Positions 31,153-39,466 of a stretch of DNA of 64,000 bases are shown one piece after another. Source of the stretch: Lacibacter cauensis (GTDB lineage Bacteria; Bacteroidota; Bacteroidia; Chitinophagales; Chitinophagaceae); contig NZ_VLLE01000002.1 in the NCBI RefSeq assembly GCF_007830055.1, positions 445,953 through 509,952 of the forward strand. Reading direction: 5' to 3'. The notes under the pieces were generated by a model that was not told the origin of the DNA, searched no databases, and saw nothing but the letters and a program-made list of their open reading frames with translations. The stretch's first letter is position 1. Each line of letters begins with the position of its first letter. The translations under genes were made by a program, and so were the position numbers.

Positions 31153-32316
31153 TTATAAAACGCCTTTGGTTGAAGGCAGGTAATTACTCAACGGATCACG
31201 CTTCACCGCCATGCGGATGGCTTTGGCAAATGCTTTGAAGATGGCTTCAATTTTATGATGCTCATTATCGCCATGACATTCGATATTGAGATTACACTTT
31301 GCCGCATCGCTGAACGATTTAAAGAAGTGGAAGAACATTTCCGTTGGCATTTCACCAATCTTTTCACGGGTGAAGGTAGCATTCCACACAATCCAGTTTC
31401 GGCCGCCAAAATCGATGAGTACTTTTGCATCGGCCTCATCCATCGGCAATGCAAAACCGTAACGTTCCATACCACGTTTATCGGCCAATGCTTTACCAAA
31501 AGCTTCACCTAACGCTATGCCGGTATCTTCAATGGTATGATGTTCGTCGATATGCAGATCGCCATGCGTGGTAATGTTGAGATCCATTTTGCCGTGGCGT
31601 GCAATCTGGTCGAGCATATGATCGAAGAAGCCTAAGCCGGTGTTGATGACTGCTTTACCGCTGCCATCTACATTCAGTTCCACTTTTATTTTTGTTTCGT
31701 TGGTGTTGCGTTCGTGCACCACGGTACGCAAGCCCAGTTTCAGAAACTCATAAATTTCTTTCCAATGCACTGTTTCCAATGCAATGGTTGATGCACGGAG
31801 TTCGGCTACCTGGTCTTGTATTTCTGCAGCACCAAGGTTCGCATCGTTGCTCATCCAGATCGCTTTACAGCCGAGATTTTTTGCCAGCTGCACATCGGTA
31901 ATACGATCGCCGATGACAAATGAATTTGCCAGATCGTATTCCGGATTGTTGATGTATTTGCCAAACATGCCAACGCCGGGTTTACGTGTAGGTGCATTTT
32001 CATGCGGGAACGTACGGTCGATTAACACATCGTTGAACGCAATGCCTTCATTCTTTAAACTGTTCACCACGAAATTGTGTACAGGCCAGAATGTATCTTC
32101 GGGAAAACTATCGGTACCCAAACCATCCTGGTTAGTGGGCATTACCAGTTCATAATCCAGCTCTGCAGCAATCTTACGCAGGTAAAAGAATACATCGGGA
32201 TAAAAGCTGAGTTTATCAAACGAATCCAGTTGATAGGTGGGAGGTGCTTCGTTAATCAACGTACCATCCCGGTCAATAAATAAAACCCGTTTACCTGTTA
32301 TTTGTGTAGTTGACAT
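31153..32316 (-). CDS. hisB: Bifunctional histidinol-phosphatase / imidazoleglycerol-phosphate dehydratase
   Basis: 387 residues from the ATG at 32316; 18 upstream codons fall in a repeat and are rejected. The N-terminal HAD phosphatase (about 1-170) has [11 protein letters not shown] with the nucleophile Asp, PTNQDGLG and [14 protein letters not shown]. The C-terminal IGPD (about 190-387) has [35 protein letters not shown] and [20 protein letters not shown], the HHxxE manganese-site motifs. The protein catalyses steps 7 and 9 of histidine synthesis. Last gene of the his transcript. Confidence 0.96.
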
Positions 32317-32395: not shown

Positions 32396-32809
32396 TTATT
32401 TGATCTTTGCTCTCGCTACTTTTACTTCAGCAGCAGTTACCAAACTGTATTTATTACCAAAGCTGTTACGTACATAGGTGAGTACATCTGCAATCTGCTG
32501 ATCGGTTAAGTTGGGTTGTGCAGGCATGGGATTATAATAGGTTTCACCATTGATTGTGAGCTCTTCTTCCAGTCCTTTTAAAACAATGTTGATGAGCTGT
32601 GGTTTTGCACCGGCCACCTGTTTTGTTTTGATCAACGGCGGATTTAATCCCTGCAAACCTTTGCCATCCTGCAAATGACAAACAGCACAGTTGTCGTTGT
32701 ATACTTTCTTCCCACGCTCCATTGAAGCTTTTAAGTTGGGCTGTTGCAGGCTGAATGAAAACAGACCAATGCTGGCTGTAAGAATAATAGCAATTGAAAG
32801 TTGTTTCAT
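32396..32809 (-). CDS. Secreted or membrane-anchored class I cytochrome c, inside the his operon
   Basis: 137 residues from the ATG at 32809. An N-terminal hydrophobic segment ([18 protein letters not shown]) acts as signal peptide or anchor. [27 protein letters not shown] holds the CxxCH heme motif (CAVCH), and [27 protein letters not shown] carries the axial Met and the C-terminal helix. A monoheme periplasmic electron carrier or a domain partner of a dehydrogenase. It lies between hisC (67 nt) and hisB (79 nt) on the same strand although it has no known role in histidine synthesis. Confidence 0.9.
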
Positions 32810-32876: not shown

Positions 32877-33926
32877 TTATGCAATAAATGAACGGAGTGC
32901 TTCCAGCAGTTCATCGTTTTCTTTAGCGGTACCAACGGTAATACGCAAACAACCTTCGCAAAGAATCACCTTGCTTCTGTCACGCACCACAATCTGTTTT
33001 GCCAGCAGGTATTCATAAATGCCTCTTGCATCAATTACTTTTACCAGCAAAAAGTTCGCATCGCTGGGGTACACTTTTTCAACCACAGGAAGATTGGGTA
33101 ATTCCACTTCCAGCCGCTTGCGTTCATTCACCAGTTCTTTGATCATGGCATTCACATCTTCGATATTGTCGAGTGCTTTGATCACTAATTCCTGTACCGC
33201 TTCGCTGATATTGTACGGCGGTTTGATTTTGTTGTAGATGCTGATGATCTCCTCGCTTGCGAACGACATACCCAAACGCAAACCTGCCAGTCCCCATGCT
33301 TTGCTCAGCGTTTGCATGACCACGAGGTTGGGATAATCGGCGAGTAATGTTACCAGTGAACGTTGACGGGAGAAGTTGATATACGCTTCATCCACCACCA
33401 CAATGCCATCGAAATTGTTTAACACCATTTCAATGTCTGCAATATTGATGCTGTTACCTGTTGGGTTGTTGGGCGAACAGATCCAGATGATTTTCGTGTG
33501 CTCATCCACCAATGTTTCCATGTGGGCAAGGTTCAGCTGAAAATCATCCAGCAGCGGTGCTTTACGCAATTCAATATCGTTGATATTGGCACTTACCTCG
33601 TACATGCCATAGGTAGGCGGACAAATAATCACATTGTCAACACCCGGGTTGCAAAATGCACGGTAGAGTAAATCAATACATTCATCACTACCATTACCAA
33701 TGAAAATCTGCTTTGGCGAGACACCTTTTATCGCCGAAAGTTTTTCTTTGATTTTGTGTTGATACGGATCGGGATAACGGTTGTACCATTTCAGCAATGG
33801 TGAACCGATGCTGTTTTCGTTTGCATCAAGATACACCTTCGCTTCACCGTGAAACTCATCACGTGCAGAAGAGTAGGGAACAAGGGTCTTGATGTTTGGG
33901 CGTAGTAAAGTATTTAAATCGAACAT
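32877..33926 (-). CDS. hisC: Histidinol-phosphate aminotransferase
   Basis: 349 residues, fold-type I PLP enzyme. YLDANENSIGSPL and YNRYPDPYQHKIKEKLS form the substrate end, GNGSDECIDLLYRAFCNPG the cofactor-phosphate loop, CSPNNPTGN and VVDEAYINFS the PLP ring region, and TLSKAWGLAGLRLG carries the Schiff-base Lys. CLRITVGTAKEND at the C-terminus binds the substrate phosphate. Converts imidazole acetol phosphate to histidinol phosphate. Third structural his gene, after the four-helix-bundle insertion. Confidence 0.96.
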   Translation of the reverse strand: MFDLNTLLRPNIKTLVPYSSARDEFHGEAKVYLDANENSIGSPLLKWYNRYPDPYQHKIKEKLSAIKGVSPKQIFIGNGSDECIDLLYRAFCNPGVDNVIICPPTYGMYEVSANINDIELRKAPLLDDFQLNLAHMETLVDEHTKIIWICSPNNPTGNSINIADIEMVLNNFDGIVVVDEAYINFSRQRSLVTLLADYPNLVVMQTLSKAWGLAGLRLGMSFASEEIISIYNKIKPPYNISEAVQELVIKALDNIEDVNAMIKELVNERKRLEVELPNLPVVEKVYPSDANFLLVKVIDARGIYEYLLAKQIVVRDRSKVILCEGCLRITVGTAKENDELLEALRSFIA

Positions 33927-33929
33927 ATT

Positions 33930-33963
33930 AAGAAGATAGAATTTAGGAGTTAGTAGATAGAAT
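33930..33963. repeat. Left repeat arm flanking the four-helix-bundle gene
   Basis: Built from AGAAGATAGAATTTAGGAG and TTAGTAGATAGAATTTT. It is the imperfect inverted counterpart of 34321-34347, and its bases encode the last residues (LSTNS) and stop of the four-helix-bundle gene. Confidence 0.6.
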
Positions 33964-34302
33964 TTTGCTCATGTATGCTTCCAGCATTTTTGAAATTTCG
34001 TTAAGAAGCGATTGCTTATCGATTACATCACCGAAGCCGAGATCAGAAGATAATATCAGATAGTATTGGCATTCTTCCAATGATCCCTGAGCTATGTTAA
34101 AGAAACGAGCTTTGTCGGCTTTGCCTTTTTTCTTATATCCTTCAGCAATGTTTGCGGCAATGGAAACGGCGGCTCGTCTGAATTGAGAACTCAAACCATA
34201 GGTTTCAGATTTAGGGAATGATTCGGTGTATTTATAAACCGACAACACAAACTGATGTGCTTTTTGCCAAACAATTAGTTCCTGAAATGTCGTTGTTGCC
34301 AT
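33943..34302 (-). CDS. Four-helix bundle protein (S23 / TIGR02436, 23S rRNA intervening-sequence family)
   Basis: 119 residues. FQELIVWQKAHQFVLSVYKYTESFPKSETYGLSSQFRRAAVSIAANIAEGY is the signature of the S23/TIGR02436 four-helix bundle, which is also the fold of Avd accessory proteins and of proteins encoded in 23S rRNA intervening sequences. RFFNIAQGSLEECQYYLILSSDLG and the final helix complete it. It probably forms a pentamer that binds nucleic acid, but the role of free-standing members is unknown. It lies between hisD and hisC and is flanked by inverted low-complexity repeats, suggesting later insertion. Confidence 0.88.
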   Translation of the reverse strand: MATTTFQELIVWQKAHQFVLSVYKYTESFPKSETYGLSSQFRRAAVSIAANIAEGYKKKGKADKARFFNIAQGSLEECQYYLILSSDLGFGDVIDKQSLLNEISKMLEAYMSKILSTNS

Positions 34303-34320: not shown

Positions 34321-34347
34321 TACTTCTAACTTCTATCTTCTATATCC
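34321..34347. repeat. Right repeat arm flanking the four-helix-bundle gene
   Basis: TACTTCTAACTTCTATCTTC followed by TATATCC; the reverse complement reads ATAGAAGATAGAAGTTAGAAG. It encodes the last residues (DIEDRS) and stop codon of hisD. Confidence 0.6.
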
Positions 34348-35624
34348 TGTGTTCTCTTCCTCACCGCTTCCGCATGCGCCTGCAGTCCTTCTGCTTCTGC
34401 CATCAACTCCACATCTTTGCCAATATGTTGTAATCCTTCTTTACTTAATTTTTGAAAAGTGATCTTCTTCACAAAACTATCCACACTTACACCGCTGTAG
34501 GCTTTTGCATAACCGTTCGTGGGTAAGGTATGATTGGTACCACTTGCATAATCGCCCACACTTTCGGGTGAATAGTTGCCTAAGAAGATGGAGCCTGCAT
34601 TGATGATCTGTTCTGCAATGGCTTCTTCATCGTTGCAACTGATGATCAAATGTTCGGCAGCATATTCATTAACCAGCTCAATCATTTCTGCTACCGTTGG
34701 CAACAGAATGGCTTTGCTGTTCTCCAATGCTTTTGCAGCAAATTCTTTGCGGGGCAAAGCTTCCAGTTGTGCCGCAGTTTCTTTCAGCACCGCATCGATC
34801 ATTTGTTCTGATGTGCTCACCAGCAACACCTGCGAATCAACACCATGTTCTGCCTGCGACAACAGATCCGATGCTACAAAAGCAGGATTCGCTGTATCAT
34901 CCGCCATTACACACACTTCGCTTGGTCCGGCCGGCATATCAATGGCCACGCCATCTTTCTGTACCAATTGTTTGGCGGCAGTAACATACTGGTTACCCGG
35001 TCCGAAAATTTTATATACCTGCGGAACAGTTTGTGTGCCATATGCCATTGCGCCGATGGCCTGCGCACCACCCACTTTAAAAATTTTGGTAATGCCGGCC
35101 AGTTGTGCCGTGTATAAAATAGCAGCGTTGATCTTGCCGTCTTTTGAAGGTGGCGTACAAAGAACAATTTCTTTGCAACCCGCAATCTTCGCCGGAACAC
35201 TCAACATTAAAATCGTAGAGAAGAGAGGCGCAGTACCACCGGGAATATACAAACCCACTTTTTCAATCGCTACAGTTTTGCGCCAGCAAAGAACGCCGGG
35301 CATTGTTTCAATTTTCTCTACTGCAGTTACCTGTTTGCGATGAAAGGTTTCGATGTTTTGTTTGGCAAGTGCAATCGCTTCTTTCAGTTCTTTACTCAAC
35401 GATGCTTCTGCAACAGCAATTTCTTCTTTGGTTACCTGTAATTCAGTTACAGAAACTTTATCAAAGATGGTGGCGAAACGTTTCAGGGCTTCGTCGCCAC
35501 TTGCTTTTACTTCGTGTAAAATATTTGCTACACTTGCTTCCAGCGATGTTGAATCCATTGCCGGACGCTTGAGCAATCGGTTCCATTCACTTTTCTTCGG
35601 ATGTTTTATGATCTGCATATTCAT
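34326..35624 (-). CDS. hisD: Histidinol dehydrogenase
   Basis: 432 residues from the ATG at 35624 (a TTG one codon earlier is rejected). Seen: PGGTAPLFSTILMLSVPAKIAGCKEIVLCTPP, KVGGAQAIGAMAYGTQTVPQVYKIFGPGNQYVTAAKQ (NAD region), DMPAGPSEVCVMAD, SQAEHG with zinc and catalytic residues, and EHLIISC. It performs two NAD-dependent oxidations from histidinol to histidine. The family normally ends soon after AEAVRKR; here the last six or so residues (DIEDRS) are encoded by the repeat arm of the neighbouring insertion. Confidence 0.96.
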   Translation of the reverse strand: MNMQIIKHPKKSEWNRLLKRPAMDSTSLEASVANILHEVKASGDEALKRFATIFDKVSVTELQVTKEEIAVAEASLSKELKEAIALAKQNIETFHRKQVTAVEKIETMPGVLCWRKTVAIEKVGLYIPGGTAPLFSTILMLSVPAKIAGCKEIVLCTPPSKDGKINAAILYTAQLAGITKIFKVGGAQAIGAMAYGTQTVPQVYKIFGPGNQYVTAAKQLVQKDGVAIDMPAGPSEVCVMADDTANPAFVASDLLSQAEHGVDSQVLLVSTSEQMIDAVLKETAAQLEALPRKEFAAKALENSKAILLPTVAEMIELVNEYAAEHLIISCNDEEAIAEQIINAGSIFLGNYSPESVGDYASGTNHTLPTNGYAKAYSGVSVDSFVKKITFQKLSKEGLQHIGKDVELMAEAEGLQAHAEAVRKRTQDIEDRS

Positions 35625-35811: not shown

Positions 35812-36729
35812 TTACATCACCATCTTCTCAATTGGTACCACCAAAATTCCTTCTGCACCTGCCGCTTTCAACTGCTCAATTTTTTCCCAGAACTCGTCTT
35901 CGCTTAACACACTGTGTACACTGCTCCAACCGGTTTCTGCCAATGGTAAAACAGTCGGGCTTTTCATGCCGGGCAATAATGCAATGATGTTGCTGAGTTT
36001 ATCGTTTGGCGCATTCATCAACACATACTTGTTACGCTTTGCTTTCTTCACAGCTTTGATGCGGAAGAGCAATTTATCTAACAGTATTTCCTGGTCTTTG
36101 TTGAGTTTATTGTTTTTGATGAGCACCGATTGCGACTGCAGAATGGTTTCCACTTCTTTCAGTCCATTCATGAACAGGGTAGAACCACTGCTCACCAGGT
36201 CAACCACCACATCGGCCAAACCAATACCGGGAGCAATTTCTACACTGCCGCTGATCTCGTGTACTTCGCCGCTGATGTTGTTCTTCTTCAAAAACTCATT
36301 CACCAAAAACGGATAGCTGGTTGCAATGCGTTTACCATCTAAGCTTTGTACACCTTGATACGTTTCACTACGAGGAATGGCTAAACTTAAACGGCATTTG
36401 CCAAAGCCGAGTTTTTCAACAATCTCTGCCTTTTTGTTTTTTTCAAACAACACATTCTCACCCACAATACCAATATCAGCAACACCATCTTCCACGTATT
36501 GTGGTATATCATCATCACGTAAGAAAAACACTTCCATCGGAAAAGTGTCGCTTTCTGTTTTCAAACGGTCTTTTACGTTGCGTAATTCAATGCCACACTC
36601 GTTGAGGAGTTTTACTGAATCGTCGTAGAGTCGTCCGCTTTTCTGGATAGCGATACGGAGTTTTGCCGGTTTGTCACTGCTGCCACCACTTAGTTCACTC
36701 AGTGGTGTGTATTTTTTTTCTTGCATCAT
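35812..36729 (-). CDS. hisG: ATP phosphoribosyltransferase, long form
   Basis: 305 residues from the ATG at 36729. KLRIAIQKSGRLYDDSVKLLNECGIEL opens the periplasmic-binding-like catalytic domain; EDGVADIGIVGENVL, ISGSVEIAPGIGLADVVVDLVSSGSTLFMNGLKEVE is the PRPP-binding loop. About 75 C-terminal residues (MNAPNDKLSNIIALLPGMKSPTVLPL, GAEGILVVPIEKMV) form the ferredoxin-like ACT-type regulatory domain of long HisG, which allows histidine feedback. It catalyses the first step of histidine synthesis and is the first structural gene after the attenuator. Confidence 0.96.
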   Translation of the reverse strand: MMQEKKYTPLSELSGGSSDKPAKLRIAIQKSGRLYDDSVKLLNECGIELRNVKDRLKTESDTFPMEVFFLRDDDIPQYVEDGVADIGIVGENVLFEKNKKAEIVEKLGFGKCRLSLAIPRSETYQGVQSLDGKRIATSYPFLVNEFLKKNNISGEVHEISGSVEIAPGIGLADVVVDLVSSGSTLFMNGLKEVETILQSQSVLIKNNKLNKDQEILLDKLLFRIKAVKKAKRNKYVLMNAPNDKLSNIIALLPGMKSPTVLPLAETGWSSVHSVLSEDEFWEKIEQLKAAGAEGILVVPIEKMVM

Positions 36730-36744
36730 AATTGTTTTATGGTT

Positions 36745-36821
36745 GACCTGACAGGTTAATTCAGTATGGTAAGACACAAGTTTATTTTAATCTTACAAAA
36801 GTGAGCTTAACCTGTCAGGTC
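36745..36821. repeat. Inverted repeat GACCTGACAGGTTAA / TTAACCTGTCAGGTC in the his leader
   Basis: The 15-nt arms at 36745-36759 and 36807-36821 are perfect complements, and each arm contains its own CCTGACAGG palindrome. The element lies between the attenuator and the hisG start codon. Confidence 0.75.
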
Positions 36822-36837
36822 GTTTGATTCAGACAAT

Positions 36838-36868
36838 AAAAAAAGGCCTACGATCCGTAAGCCTTTTT
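36838..36868 (-). terminator. his operon attenuator (terminator arm)
   Basis: On the minus strand AAAAAGGCTTACG pairs with CGTAGGCCTTTTT around GAT, followed by further T residues. The upstream arm GGCTTAC can instead pair with GGTAAGCC at 36897-36904, which overlaps the leader-peptide stop codon, giving the antiterminator. Confidence 0.85.
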
Positions 36869-36899
36869 ACAATATTGTAGAACACAATACACATCTGGC

Positions 36900-36950
36900 T
36901 TACCTGGTAGGGCAAGTATGGTGATGATGTGTATGCGTATTTGAAATCAT
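36900..36950 (-). CDS. hisL: Histidine operon leader peptide (attenuator)
   Basis: 16 codons: MISNTHTHHHHTCPTR, with five His codons among residues 6-11. The ATG is at 36950 and the TAA at 36902-36900. The GGTAAGCC segment at its end overlaps the stop codon and is complementary to GGCTTAC, the first arm of the terminator at 36838-36868. Ribosomes stalled at the His codons when charged tRNA-His is scarce would leave that segment free to form the antiterminator; ribosomes reaching the stop would cover it and the terminator would form. Too short for ordinary gene finding. Confidence 0.88.
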   Translation of the reverse strand: MISNTHTHHHHTCPTR

Positions 36951-36954
36951 GGCG

Positions 36955-36985
36955 CAAAAATAAGGGCAGAAATTGAATCAGCAAA
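36955..36985 (-). promoter_or_regulatory. his operon promoter, TTTG-N19-TATTTTTG
   Basis: Minus-strand -33 TTTG (36985-36982) and -7 TATTTTTG (36962-36955), 19 nt apart, match the Bacteroidota consensus exactly. Only CGCC separates the box from the leader ATG. The same TTTGCGCC sequence precedes the ffs 5' end, so transcription should start at or next to the leader ATG. Confidence 0.8.
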
Positions 36986-37057
36986 TAATTTGTTGAATGG
37001 TAGAGTAAAAAACTTGTCTTTCGCTACTTTCGAAATCCAAAACAAACAATCATTTGT

Positions 37058-39466
37058 ATGAGAAGTGTATCTCTTTTCTTGATGTTCTTTCTGGCAATTC
37101 ATGTTGTTGCACAGGATGCGGTCAATTATCAATTACCGCCAAAAGATATTATGGATCTTGCATTGGCAAAGCCTACACCAACGGTAAGTGTAGACAGTAA
37201 AGGCCAGTGGATGTTATTAATTGAACGGAATACCTATCCGTTGGTGGATGAACTGGGCCAGCCCGAAGTACGTGTGGCCGGTTTGCGTATCAACCCGGCT
37301 AACTTCTCGTTGAGTCGCCAGAATTACATCAACAATTTTACGCTGAAGAATATTGCTTCCGGTAAAGAATACAAGATCAGCGGACTGCCGGCCAATATGC
37401 TGGCAAATGCAGTTTCGTGGAGCCCCAACGAAAAAAAGTTTGCTTTTACCAACAGCACCGGCTCGCTGGTAGATTTGTATGTGGTAGATATTGCTACACA
37501 AAAAGCATTTAAAGTAAACAAAACGGCATTGAATGTGGTGTTAGGAGCTGCTTTCAGTTGGTTAGATGATAATACGCTGTTGTATAAAACCATCATCAAG
37601 CCTGCATCGGCAATGCCCAAACGCCCCATTACTCCGAAAGGTCCAACCGTGCAGGAGAGCTATGGCAGTGCAGCGCCACGTCCTACGTTTCAGGATATGA
37701 TCAAATCGCCTTACGATGAAGCATTGTTTGAGTTTTTTACAACTGCTCAGTTGGTGAAGAATGTAAACGGCGTAGAAACAAAAATCAATCAGCCGGCTAT
37801 CTATTCATCTGTCAGTCCATCGCCCGATAAAAAGTATTGGTTGGTGCGTACCATCAACAAGCCGTTTTCGTACGTGGTGCCTGCCAACGGATTTAATGCA
37901 ACAGTTGCTATAACTGATGCAAACGGAAAGTTTGTAAAAGAAATGGCGAAACTGCCTTCTGCAGAAACTGCACCTGCAGGTAACGATAATGTGGCAGATG
38001 TGCCTCGTTCTATTGAATGGCGTGATGATGAAGCAGCAACCATTGTTTGGTGCAAACCGTTGGATGGTGGCCTGATCAAAAACACAGCAGAATACCGTGA
38101 TGCAGTGTATGCATTGCCTGCACCGTTTACTGCACAACCGAAAGAATTATTCAAAACAAAAATGCGTTACGGTGGCACTACCTGGGGTAACAGCAGCTTT
38201 GCGTTGGTACAGGAAGTGTTGCGCAGCAAAGCACAAACAAAACTCAGCCGTTTAAATCCATCATCCGGTGAAATGGAAGTACTGCAGGAGCGTAGTGCCA
38301 ACGATGCGTACAGTAACTACGGCAGCCCGGTATCAGAAAAAAACAGTTTCAATCGTGATGTGGTGATACCGCACGATGGAAAACTGTTGATGAATAATAC
38401 AACCGGTGCATCGCCTAAAGGCGATTTGCCTTACATCTCTTATTTCAACCTGGCAACAAAGCAAAACGAAATTATCTGGCGTTGTAAAGAAGATGAATAT
38501 GAATTGGTAACTGATGTAATTGACCGTAACACGTTAACGGTAATTACGAGAAGAGAAACACAAACCGAAGTACCGAACTTTTACATGAAAACGTTGAAAG
38601 GTTTTGTGCCAGGCGGCGGCAAGCAGGTAACCAATTTCAAAAATCCATATCCGCAACTGGAAGGAATTTCTGTTCAGAAAATTTCTTACAAGCGTGCAGA
38701 TGGTGTTGACTTAACAGGCAATCTTTATCTGCCGAAAGGATACGATGTAAAGAAAGATGGTCCGTTACCGGTGCTGATGTGGGCTTACCCACGTGAGTTT
38801 ACCAATGCACGTGATGCCGCACAGGTGCGTGGATCAAAAAATCAGTTTACACGCATCAGCTGGGGCAGCCCGATTTTTTGGGTAACACAAGGTTATGCTG
38901 TGTTGGATAATGCAGAAATGCCGATTGTTGCCACAAGTGCAGATAAAAAACCGAACGATGATTTTATTGATCAGCTGAAATTAAATGCACGTGCTGCCAT
39001 TGATAAATTAGCAGCAATGGGTGTGGGCGACAGTACACGTGTGGGTGTAGGCGGCCATAGCTATGGTGCGTTTATGACAGCGCATTTACTATCGCACACC
39101 AATTGGTTTAAAGCCGGTATTGCACGCAGCGGTGCGTACAACAGAACATTAACACCGTTCAGTTTCCAGAACGAAGACCGTACGTACTGGCAGGCGCCGC
39201 AATTGTATTTTGATATGAGTCCGTTCAGCTATGCACACAAGATTAAAACACCGATCCTGTTGGTGCATGGCGATACAGATGATAACACAGGAACTTATCC
39301 CATCCAGAGTGAACGGATGTTCCAGGCATTGAAAGGCAATGGTGGTAATGTACGATATGTAAGCTTACCCTACGAAGCACATGGGTACCGTGGTAAAGAA
39401 AATATATTGCATTTGTTGTGGGAAGAGCATATGTGGTTAGAGAAATATGTGAAGGGAAAGAAATAG
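37058..39466 (+). CDS. S9 family (prolyl-oligopeptidase-type) peptidase, secreted
   Basis: 802 residues. Signal peptide 1-19 (LFLMFFLAIHVVAQ). A beta-propeller of about 500 residues is followed by the catalytic alpha/beta-hydrolase domain with GVGGHSYGAFMTAHLL (Ser about 669), LLVHGDTDDNTGTYPIQ (Asp) and LPYEAHGYRG (His). The GGHSYGAFM context resembles the glutamyl endopeptidase/DPP-like S9 enzymes of Bacteroidota. It probably cleaves short peptides in the periplasm. It is divergent from the his operon and ends in a terminator after a short TAGTTTGTAGTT repeat. Confidence 0.92.
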   Translation: MRSVSLFLMFFLAIHVVAQDAVNYQLPPKDIMDLALAKPTPTVSVDSKGQWMLLIERNTYPLVDELGQPEVRVAGLRINPANFSLSRQNYINNFTLKNIASGKEYKISGLPANMLANAVSWSPNEKKFAFTNSTGSLVDLYVVDIATQKAFKVNKTALNVVLGAAFSWLDDNTLLYKTIIKPASAMPKRPITPKGPTVQESYGSAAPRPTFQDMIKSPYDEALFEFFTTAQLVKNVNGVETKINQPAIYSSVSPSPDKKYWLVRTINKPFSYVVPANGFNATVAITDANGKFVKEMAKLPSAETAPAGNDNVADVPRSIEWRDDEAATIVWCKPLDGGLIKNTAEYRDAVYALPAPFTAQPKELFKTKMRYGGTTWGNSSFALVQEVLRSKAQTKLSRLNPSSGEMEVLQERSANDAYSNYGSPVSEKNSFNRDVVIPHDGKLLMNNTTGASPKGDLPYISYFNLATKQNEIIWRCKEDEYELVTDVIDRNTLTVITRRETQTEVPNFYMKTLKGFVPGGGKQVTNFKNPYPQLEGISVQKISYKRADGVDLTGNLYLPKGYDVKKDGPLPVLMWAYPREFTNARDAAQVRGSKNQFTRISWGSPIFWVTQGYAVLDNAEMPIVATSADKKPNDDFIDQLKLNARAAIDKLAAMGVGDSTRVGVGGHSYGAFMTAHLLSHTNWFKAGIARSGAYNRTLTPFSFQNEDRTYWQAPQLYFDMSPFSYAHKIKTPILLVHGDTDDNTGTYPIQSERMFQALKGNGGNVRYVSLPYEAHGYRGKENILHLLWEEHMWLEKYVKGKK

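Follow-up and report, generated by a model that had tools for sequence, protein, structure and literature searches.

A probable ribosome-mediated attenuator before hisG in Lacibacter cauensis, with related amino-acid leaders in the Chitinophagaceae

The window analyzed here is a stretch of 64,000 nt from Lacibacter cauensis, of which the minus strand carries a histidine biosynthesis operon. The nearest named records to this genome belong to the Chitinophagaceae, the HisG protein of Lacibacter luteus TTM-7 being 99% identical. The his genes of the window are the following:

35812-36729, minus strand: hisG, first gene of the probably regulated operon (Pfam HisG and HisG_C)
34326-35624, minus strand: hisD (Pfam Histidinol_dh)
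32877-33926, minus strand: hisC-type aminotransferase gene (Pfam Aminotran_1_2, and its position in the his cluster)
31153-32313, minus strand: bifunctional hisB (Pfam IGPD and HAD-like)

Two further genes lie on the same strand within the cluster. One encodes a protein of the 23S rRNA intervening-sequence type (IVP-like; 33943-34302, between hisD and the hisC-type gene) and the other a cytochrome c-like protein (32396-32809, between the hisC-type gene and hisB).

Upstream of hisG, positions 36985-36838 of the minus strand hold the probable attenuator studied here, which consists of a Bacteroidota-type promoter, a leader of 16 codons of which five are His codons, and an intrinsic terminator. 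The features of this region, and of the stretch that separates it from hisG, are:

36982-36985, minus strand: TTTG, −33 element of a primary-sigma promoter of the Bacteroidota type, separated from the −7 box by 19 nt
36955-36962, minus strand: −7 box TATTTTTG (TAnnTTTG), 4 nt ahead of the leader ATG
36900-36950, minus strand: leader peptide ORF MISNTHTHHHHTCPTR, with His at codons 6, 8, 9, 10 and 11
36926-36941, minus strand: 5' arm of the outer stem, AATACGCATACACATC, inside the leader
36918-36935, minus strand: putative regulatory codons CAT ACA CAT CAT CAC CAT, 5 His among 6 codons
36911-36916, minus strand: segment 1, CTTGCC, immediately following the His codons within the leader; partner of segment 2
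36897-36904, minus strand: segment 2, GGTAAGCC, the antiterminator strand, overlapping the leader stop codon TAA
36881-36895, minus strand: 3' arm of the outer stem, GATGTGTATTGTGTT, after the leader stop
36840-36868, minus strand: intrinsic terminator AAAAAGGCTTACG...CGTAGGCCTTTTT, between leader and hisG
36856-36868, minus strand: segment 3, AAAAAGGCTTACG, 5' arm of the terminator and partner of the antiterminator
36840-36852, minus strand: segment 4, CGTAGGCCTTTTT, 3' arm of the terminator
36838-36844, minus strand: T-run of the terminator
36745-36821, minus strand: 77-bp element with 13-bp terminal inverted repeats GACCTGACAGGTT/AACCTGTCAGGTC, between terminator and hisG

The initial annotation had described a minus-strand frame of 16 codons with five His codons upstream of hisG, followed by a terminator, and both are found (36950-36900; 36868-36840, with the T-run ending at 36838); the upper limit that it gave, 36985, coincides with the first T of the −33 TTTG. 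As the gene on the other side (37058-39466, plus strand) is divergent from the attenuator, the terminator does not serve that gene. The 77-bp element is not part of the attenuator. The genome of the window contains 44 exact repeat arms, which can be read as 21 paired copies of the element, this one included, with arms 64-65 bp apart, plus 2 single arms; the element was not seen at the same place in Lacibacter luteus, where only a lone GACCTGACAGGTC is found nearby.

HisG was detected in 113/147 Chitinophagaceae genomes. Upstream regions were taken from 110 of these and from one more genome of the family (L117), and 109 were tested after leaving out two that were too short. A strict test, requiring an ATG start, 6-40 codons and HHH within 400 nt upstream of hisG, identified a leader in 95/109 regions on the coding strand, in 0/109 on the reverse strand, and in a mean of 0.15 (maximum 1) over 20 dinucleotide shuffles, showing that the His leader is not due to chance. 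The search for the same His-rich mini-frame in related genomes, proposed with the initial annotation, thus gave a positive result. A looser test (3 His in 6 residues), a figure that carries no background count, found a leader at 107/109 family loci, with L113 doubtful, its leader not being credible; by this test no leader was found at L110 and L111 among the 109 loci. The leader upstream of hisG in Lacibacter luteus reads MISNTHTHHHHTCPNR.

The promoter accompanies the leader through the family. An exact TAnnTTTG stands 2-25 nt ahead of the start in 97/107 leaders (mean 3.2 and maximum 9 over 50 shuffles), 68 of these 97 have an exact TTTG 17-21 nt above the box (shuffle mean 0.14), and with up to one mismatch in the box, promoter box and leader occur together in 105/107. 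In Bacteroides thetaiotaomicron the promoter element is centered at −7, and Bacteroidota mRNAs are described as lacking Shine-Dalgarno sequences (PMC7366714). From this centering and the gap between box and ATG, the transcription start of the his leader is predicted to coincide with the leader ATG or to lie right beside it, and the mRNA is probably leaderless or nearly so, judging by promoter spacing. Within the window a control on box-to-ORF distances is too small to be informative (7 boxes for 51 ORFs), although 3/7 gaps of 3-4 nt suggest that short leaders may be common there. The attenuator could be real and its transcript nevertheless start further upstream, with an ordinary 5' UTR: allowing one mismatch, the box lies 14-21 nt from the leader start in 26/105 family leaders, 5' UTRs shorter than 10 nt are rare in B. 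thetaiotaomicron (only ~3.7%; PMC7366714), and only 5.5% of the mRNAs of Flavobacterium psychrophilum are leaderless (PMC9723704). We consider this unlikely in view of the recurrence of the exact −7 box and −33 TTTG over their shuffle means, and of a gap of 4-10 nt in the other 79/105 leaders.

Segment 2 had been described in the initial annotation as overlapping the stop codon and as complementary to GGCTTAC in the first arm of the terminator. Both statements are borne out, with GGTAAGCC at 36904-36897 covering the TAA and forming 7 pairs with GGCTTAC (2:3). The description of the attenuator as a compact two-structure form is wrong: there are four segments, with the pairings 1:2, 2:3 and 3:4, and an outer stem. 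In the window, the 1:2 hairpin pairs CTTGCC (36916-36911) with GGTAAG at -6.5 kcal/mol, and a 1:2 hairpin of at least 4 pairs is present in 97/105 family leaders, a count that omits L035 and L113 only.

Ninety-nine of the 107 family leaders (96 distinct) were aligned; the remaining eight were left out, L035 because the scan chose the wrong hairpin and L063, L072, L076, L080, L112, L113 and L114 because their segments had diverged or were unclear. Over the aligned leaders, 98.1% of the cells of the 3:4 terminator and 97.1% of those of the 2:3 antiterminator are paired. In 3:4, double changes occur in 7/10 pairs, a level reached by 0/500 shuffles; in 2:3 they are few, affecting 3 pairs and matched by 63/500 shuffles. 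Shuffle z-scores of the antiterminator, which have low power over such short regions, are below -2 in 76/107 leaders and below -3 in 43/107. Loss of the His codons, or of the pairing between segments 2 and 3, in relatives had been set beforehand as a possible refutation of his attenuation; both are kept.

Several aspects of the geometry are conserved as well. Segment 2 overlaps the stop codon in 71/99 aligned leaders, and the last His codon lies 13-20 nt from segment 2 in 77/78 leaders, about one ribosome footprint. An exact CTTACC or CTTGCC segment 1 is present in 53/99 (27/20/6 by frame class), and a looser pattern in 78/99 (40/21/17); since segment 1 is not tied to one reading frame but occurs in each of the three, selection acts on the RNA rather than on the peptide. 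The outer stem, formed by the 5' part of the leader with the stretch after segment 2, has a mean energy of -13.8 kcal/mol for cognate arms, compared with -8.0 for shuffled arms and -12.4 kcal/mol for arms from other species, and its arms covary to a modest extent (mean rank 0.371). The hairpin might also have no regulatory role, being either a constitutive terminator or the place where an antisense or small RNA ends, but this would fit poorly with the joint presence of promoter box and leader in 105/107 family leaders and with the maintenance of 3:4 and 2:3 over the alignment and of 1:2 in nearly all leaders, and we regard it as very improbable.

The behavior expected of such a switch was modeled in silico with the ribosome represented as a blocked footprint, folding the RNA up to segment 3 and leaving segment 4 out. 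Under these conditions, when the footprint sits at codons 5, 6 or 8-12, the window leader forms 7 antiterminator pairs; 6 are left at codon 13 and none at codons 14-16 or the stop. The ribosome-free RNA adopts 1:2 together with the outer stem. The energy minimum of the complete RNA contains 3:4 wherever the ribosome was placed, codon 10 being the only exception. The switch thus requires 2:3 to form first and to persist, so that it depends on the order of events. Among the 99 family leaders folded without segment 4, placing the ribosome at the last His codon gives the antiterminator in 97 (it fails in L098 and L099) and placing it at the stop gives it in 5, so that 92/99 switch as predicted at both positions; in 5/99 leaders the stop lies well beyond segment 2, which a ribosome at the stop codon leaves uncovered. 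Without a ribosome, 73 of the 99 show a 1:2-like pairing and 25 the antiterminator, and the default of the untranslated RNA is therefore not uniform.

When 98 loci outside the family are considered, drawn from the best HisG matches listed (332/395 genomes matched), features similar to those of the Chitinophagaceae are observed in part. The strict ATG..HHH test identified 60/98 of these loci, compared with 0 on the reverse strand and 0.05 in shuffles, and the loose His criterion 87/98, the latter figure without a background count. A His-rich leader with a terminator is present at 61/98 loci, and at one locus or more in 13/22 other families sampled. Support for the antiterminator is uneven among them, with median z-scores from -3.8 (f4) to 0.0 (f30). 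No intrinsic terminator was found at the His-rich ORFs of f3, f9, f10, f24, f43 and part of f8; such mini-ORFs are those at L195-L200 (f3), L181, L184 and L187 (f9), L140 and L170 (f10), L208, L214 and L218 (f24) and L209 (f43), and they perhaps represent another mode of attenuation. By eye, several loci of f3 and f24 share a TTCTACG after the stop. In f15, f19, f26 and f48, no His-rich ORF was found among the 98 loci sampled.

A covariance model built from the his leaders (R1) matched 123/144 family genomes at E <= 0.01, the weak matches lying mostly away from hisG. Inspection of 20 of the 23 matches away from hisG (E up to 0.0013) placed three before asd, one before lysC, two before lysA, seven before an aminotransferase gene of unassigned specificity, one before ilvE and six elsewhere; one protein of each kind was checked in NCBIfam and the rest were named by likeness. 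All thirteen matches before asd, lysC, lysA and the aminotransferase gene have Lys-rich leaders, with 3:4 paired in all cells and the poorly aligned 1:2 paired in 60%. A model built from these 13 leaders (R2) matched 99/144 family genomes, some of them at hisG. Among these matches 39 further places were inspected; L393 and L401, the latter at hisG, were left unclassified by the script, and the other 37 were assigned by sequence motifs, 33 of them to sites ahead of asd and a single one each to sites ahead of lysC, dapA, the aminotransferase gene and hisG; NCBIfam backs the assignment to asd at L336, L410 and L402 and that to dapA at L428. Lys-rich leaders on a similar scaffold are listed before lysC, lysA, asd, dapA and the aminotransferase gene at L331-L334, L336, L338-L340, L342, L343, L345-L347 and L428.

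In 36 hand-listed asd leaders, Lys makes up 29% of the residues, compared with 4% and 12% in the two alternative frames. Lys is kept at four positions, in 32, 32, 29 and 29 of 34 anchored leaders, a conservation that may partly stem from the outer stem, and at the second of these AAA and AAG are interchanged (17 and 15). The genome of the window has such a putative lysine-coded attenuator itself, MNKKHTKRTKKQFRKGR before asd (L410; G000:C3:575135-575252, minus strand; R2, E 3e-5). R1 gives E 2e-11 for the his copy in this genome and 0.05 for its next match, and does not match the asd copy even at E <= 10, so that only R2 finds it. When this asd leader is folded up to segment 3, the antiterminator is lost between codons 11 and 14, and the full-length minimum has 3:4 at every position. 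It has no 1:2 hairpin and forms the antiterminator without a ribosome, and its untranslated default may therefore be read-through. As Thr codons are also present, the signal may be Lys, Thr or both. The lysine riboswitch (RF00168) was found in 0/144 family genomes, in a search whose control matched 4/14 known genomes including E. coli and B. subtilis.

A family-wide Lys attenuator before the class I/II aminotransferase gene was considered and rejected, since by eye only L350, L351, L367 and perhaps L375 of 30 loci show one; at L351 the best-scoring ORF of the script differs from the Lys leader recognized by eye. No Lys attenuator was recognized at the aminotransferase copy in the genome of the window (L371). 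None of the 25 NCBIfam families listed for the aminotransferase reaches its cut-off, and the supposed role of this protein in the lysine pathway is therefore conjectural.

Leaders coding for other amino acids were also encountered. In a sample of the phylum, R2 matched 8/390 genomes at E <= 0.001, all but one in the Chitinophagaceae. The single match outside this family is at a Trp leader, MKMTQLNNWWWKSLNLR (L453, genome G231, family f5), with the terminator GGCTTATC, before an anthranilate-synthase-like gene whose NCBIfam score is below the equivalog cut-off. The leader before ilvE (L341, G127:C49) is rich in Leu, Val and Ile (..PALLVVVVIIIPAI..). An R1-type element (L330, G097:C47:82934-83026, E 1.5e-7), maybe a relic, precedes what by eye is an acetyltransferase-like gene in a genome without a hisG match.

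No Rfam family matched the his leader of the window at its cut-off, the whole window yielding only an SRP RNA and a tRNA at gathering scores. For the His_leader family (RF00514) no match was found in 36600-37060 at E <= 10, and 0/144 family genomes exceeded the cut-off, with an E. coli control that matched; weaker matches (E <= 0.001) in 10/144 family genomes include none listed at a hisG place. Pairs of terminators and antiterminators also serve T-boxes and protein or metabolite sensors, and such a sensor could in principle control the terminator, with the His-rich ORF being incidental. A T-box or riboswitch reading was rejected given the missing Rfam matches: neither of these nor His_leader is matched in the window at gathering scores, and in 36600-37060 at E <= 10 only matches far below the cut-off appear, none of these three kinds. 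In addition, the His codons keep a nearly fixed distance from segment 2 and the identity of the codons, His or Lys, tracks the pathway, leaving such a sensor with very little probability.

Our data strongly favor ribosome-mediated attenuation of his operon transcription, as supported by the leader, the pairings, the in-silico switch, the divergent upstream gene and the coherent case of Lys codons before genes of the lysine pathway; the initial reading as his attenuation is upheld by conservation, pairings and switch. From these observations we infer the start site, ribosome stalling, the kinetic order of folding, termination and the response to histidine as follows. RNA polymerase would initiate on the leader ATG or immediately beside it, and a ribosome would load on the (near-)leaderless 5' end. 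When charged His-tRNA is short, the ribosome would stall on the His codons and cover segment 1, allowing 2:3 to pair before segment 4 is made and hisG to be transcribed. When His-tRNA is plentiful, the ribosome would reach the stop codon and cover segment 2, so that 3:4 forms and the transcript ends near 36838. If translation does not occur, 1:2 and the outer stem would hold segment 2, and termination would again be favored.

The his attenuator of enterobacteria consists of a leader with His codons and alternative hairpins upstream of hisG. The Lacibacter element resembles it (RF00514) in the run of His codons, the alternative hairpins and the place before hisG, and differs in being probably near-leaderless, with a Bacteroidota promoter, an outer stem and no RF00514 match. 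Within the phylum, the regions ahead of amino-acid operons of F. psychrophilum are reported to give "strong clues" of attenuation by a leader peptide, and the same work describes a structured element 5' of hisG that is conserved in this species and other Flavobacteriaceae, has no Rfam hits and is considered probably original (PMC9723704). This element shares phylum and gene with that of Lacibacter; the section devoted to it shows neither a leader sequence nor segments, and Chitinophagaceae and lysine are absent from it (PMC9723704). RNA attenuators are described for Proteobacteria, with new ones in Firmicutes, and the His-leader attenuators of the latter are alike in their His-rich leader, terminator and antiterminator and differ in phylum (PMC9413887). 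As predicted for the Lacibacter his leader, the peptide of Sinorhizobium meliloti trpL is read from the very 5' end, although amino acid and phylum differ; the trpL RNA is stated to begin with ATG (PMC7298713), whereas for the his leader such a start is expected from promoter spacing. The leaderless polycysteine attenuators of mycobacteria likewise have the leader at the 5' end, with another amino acid and phylum.

For lysine, an attenuation-type element is predicted upstream of lysQ in Lactococcus lactis, in a source that cites a comparative attenuation study (Lopatovskaya et al., 2010) for elements predicted in other phyla ahead of hisG, hisZ and lysQ (PMC4833913); that study may cover Bacteroidetes. 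No report of leader-peptide attenuation for lysine was found in the titles and abstract openings of the literature searched. The his element of the window thus belongs to an established mechanism, of which it shows variant features; what seems novel is the lysine branch. On balance we favor, with considerable reserve, a single compact (near-)leaderless module that serves several amino acids including lysine in the Chitinophagaceae and, in other sequence forms, in much of the Bacteroidota, with stalling at Lys codons controlling asd, lysC, dapA and lysA in a family devoid of the lysine riboswitch; our confidence is slightly lowered by the lysQ prediction and by the fold that the untranslated asd leader adopts.

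The his leader element is ready to become an RNA family. Lysine is usually linked to riboswitches and, if true, the lysine version adds a riboswitch-associated amino acid to attenuation. Ribosome-mediated attenuation works only if the ribosome follows RNA polymerase closely, and how general the coupling of transcription and translation is among bacteria is an open question. Conserved His attenuators and, by the same logic, those for Lys and Trp imply a working transcription-translation coupling in Bacteroidota, which the his leaders make directly testable.
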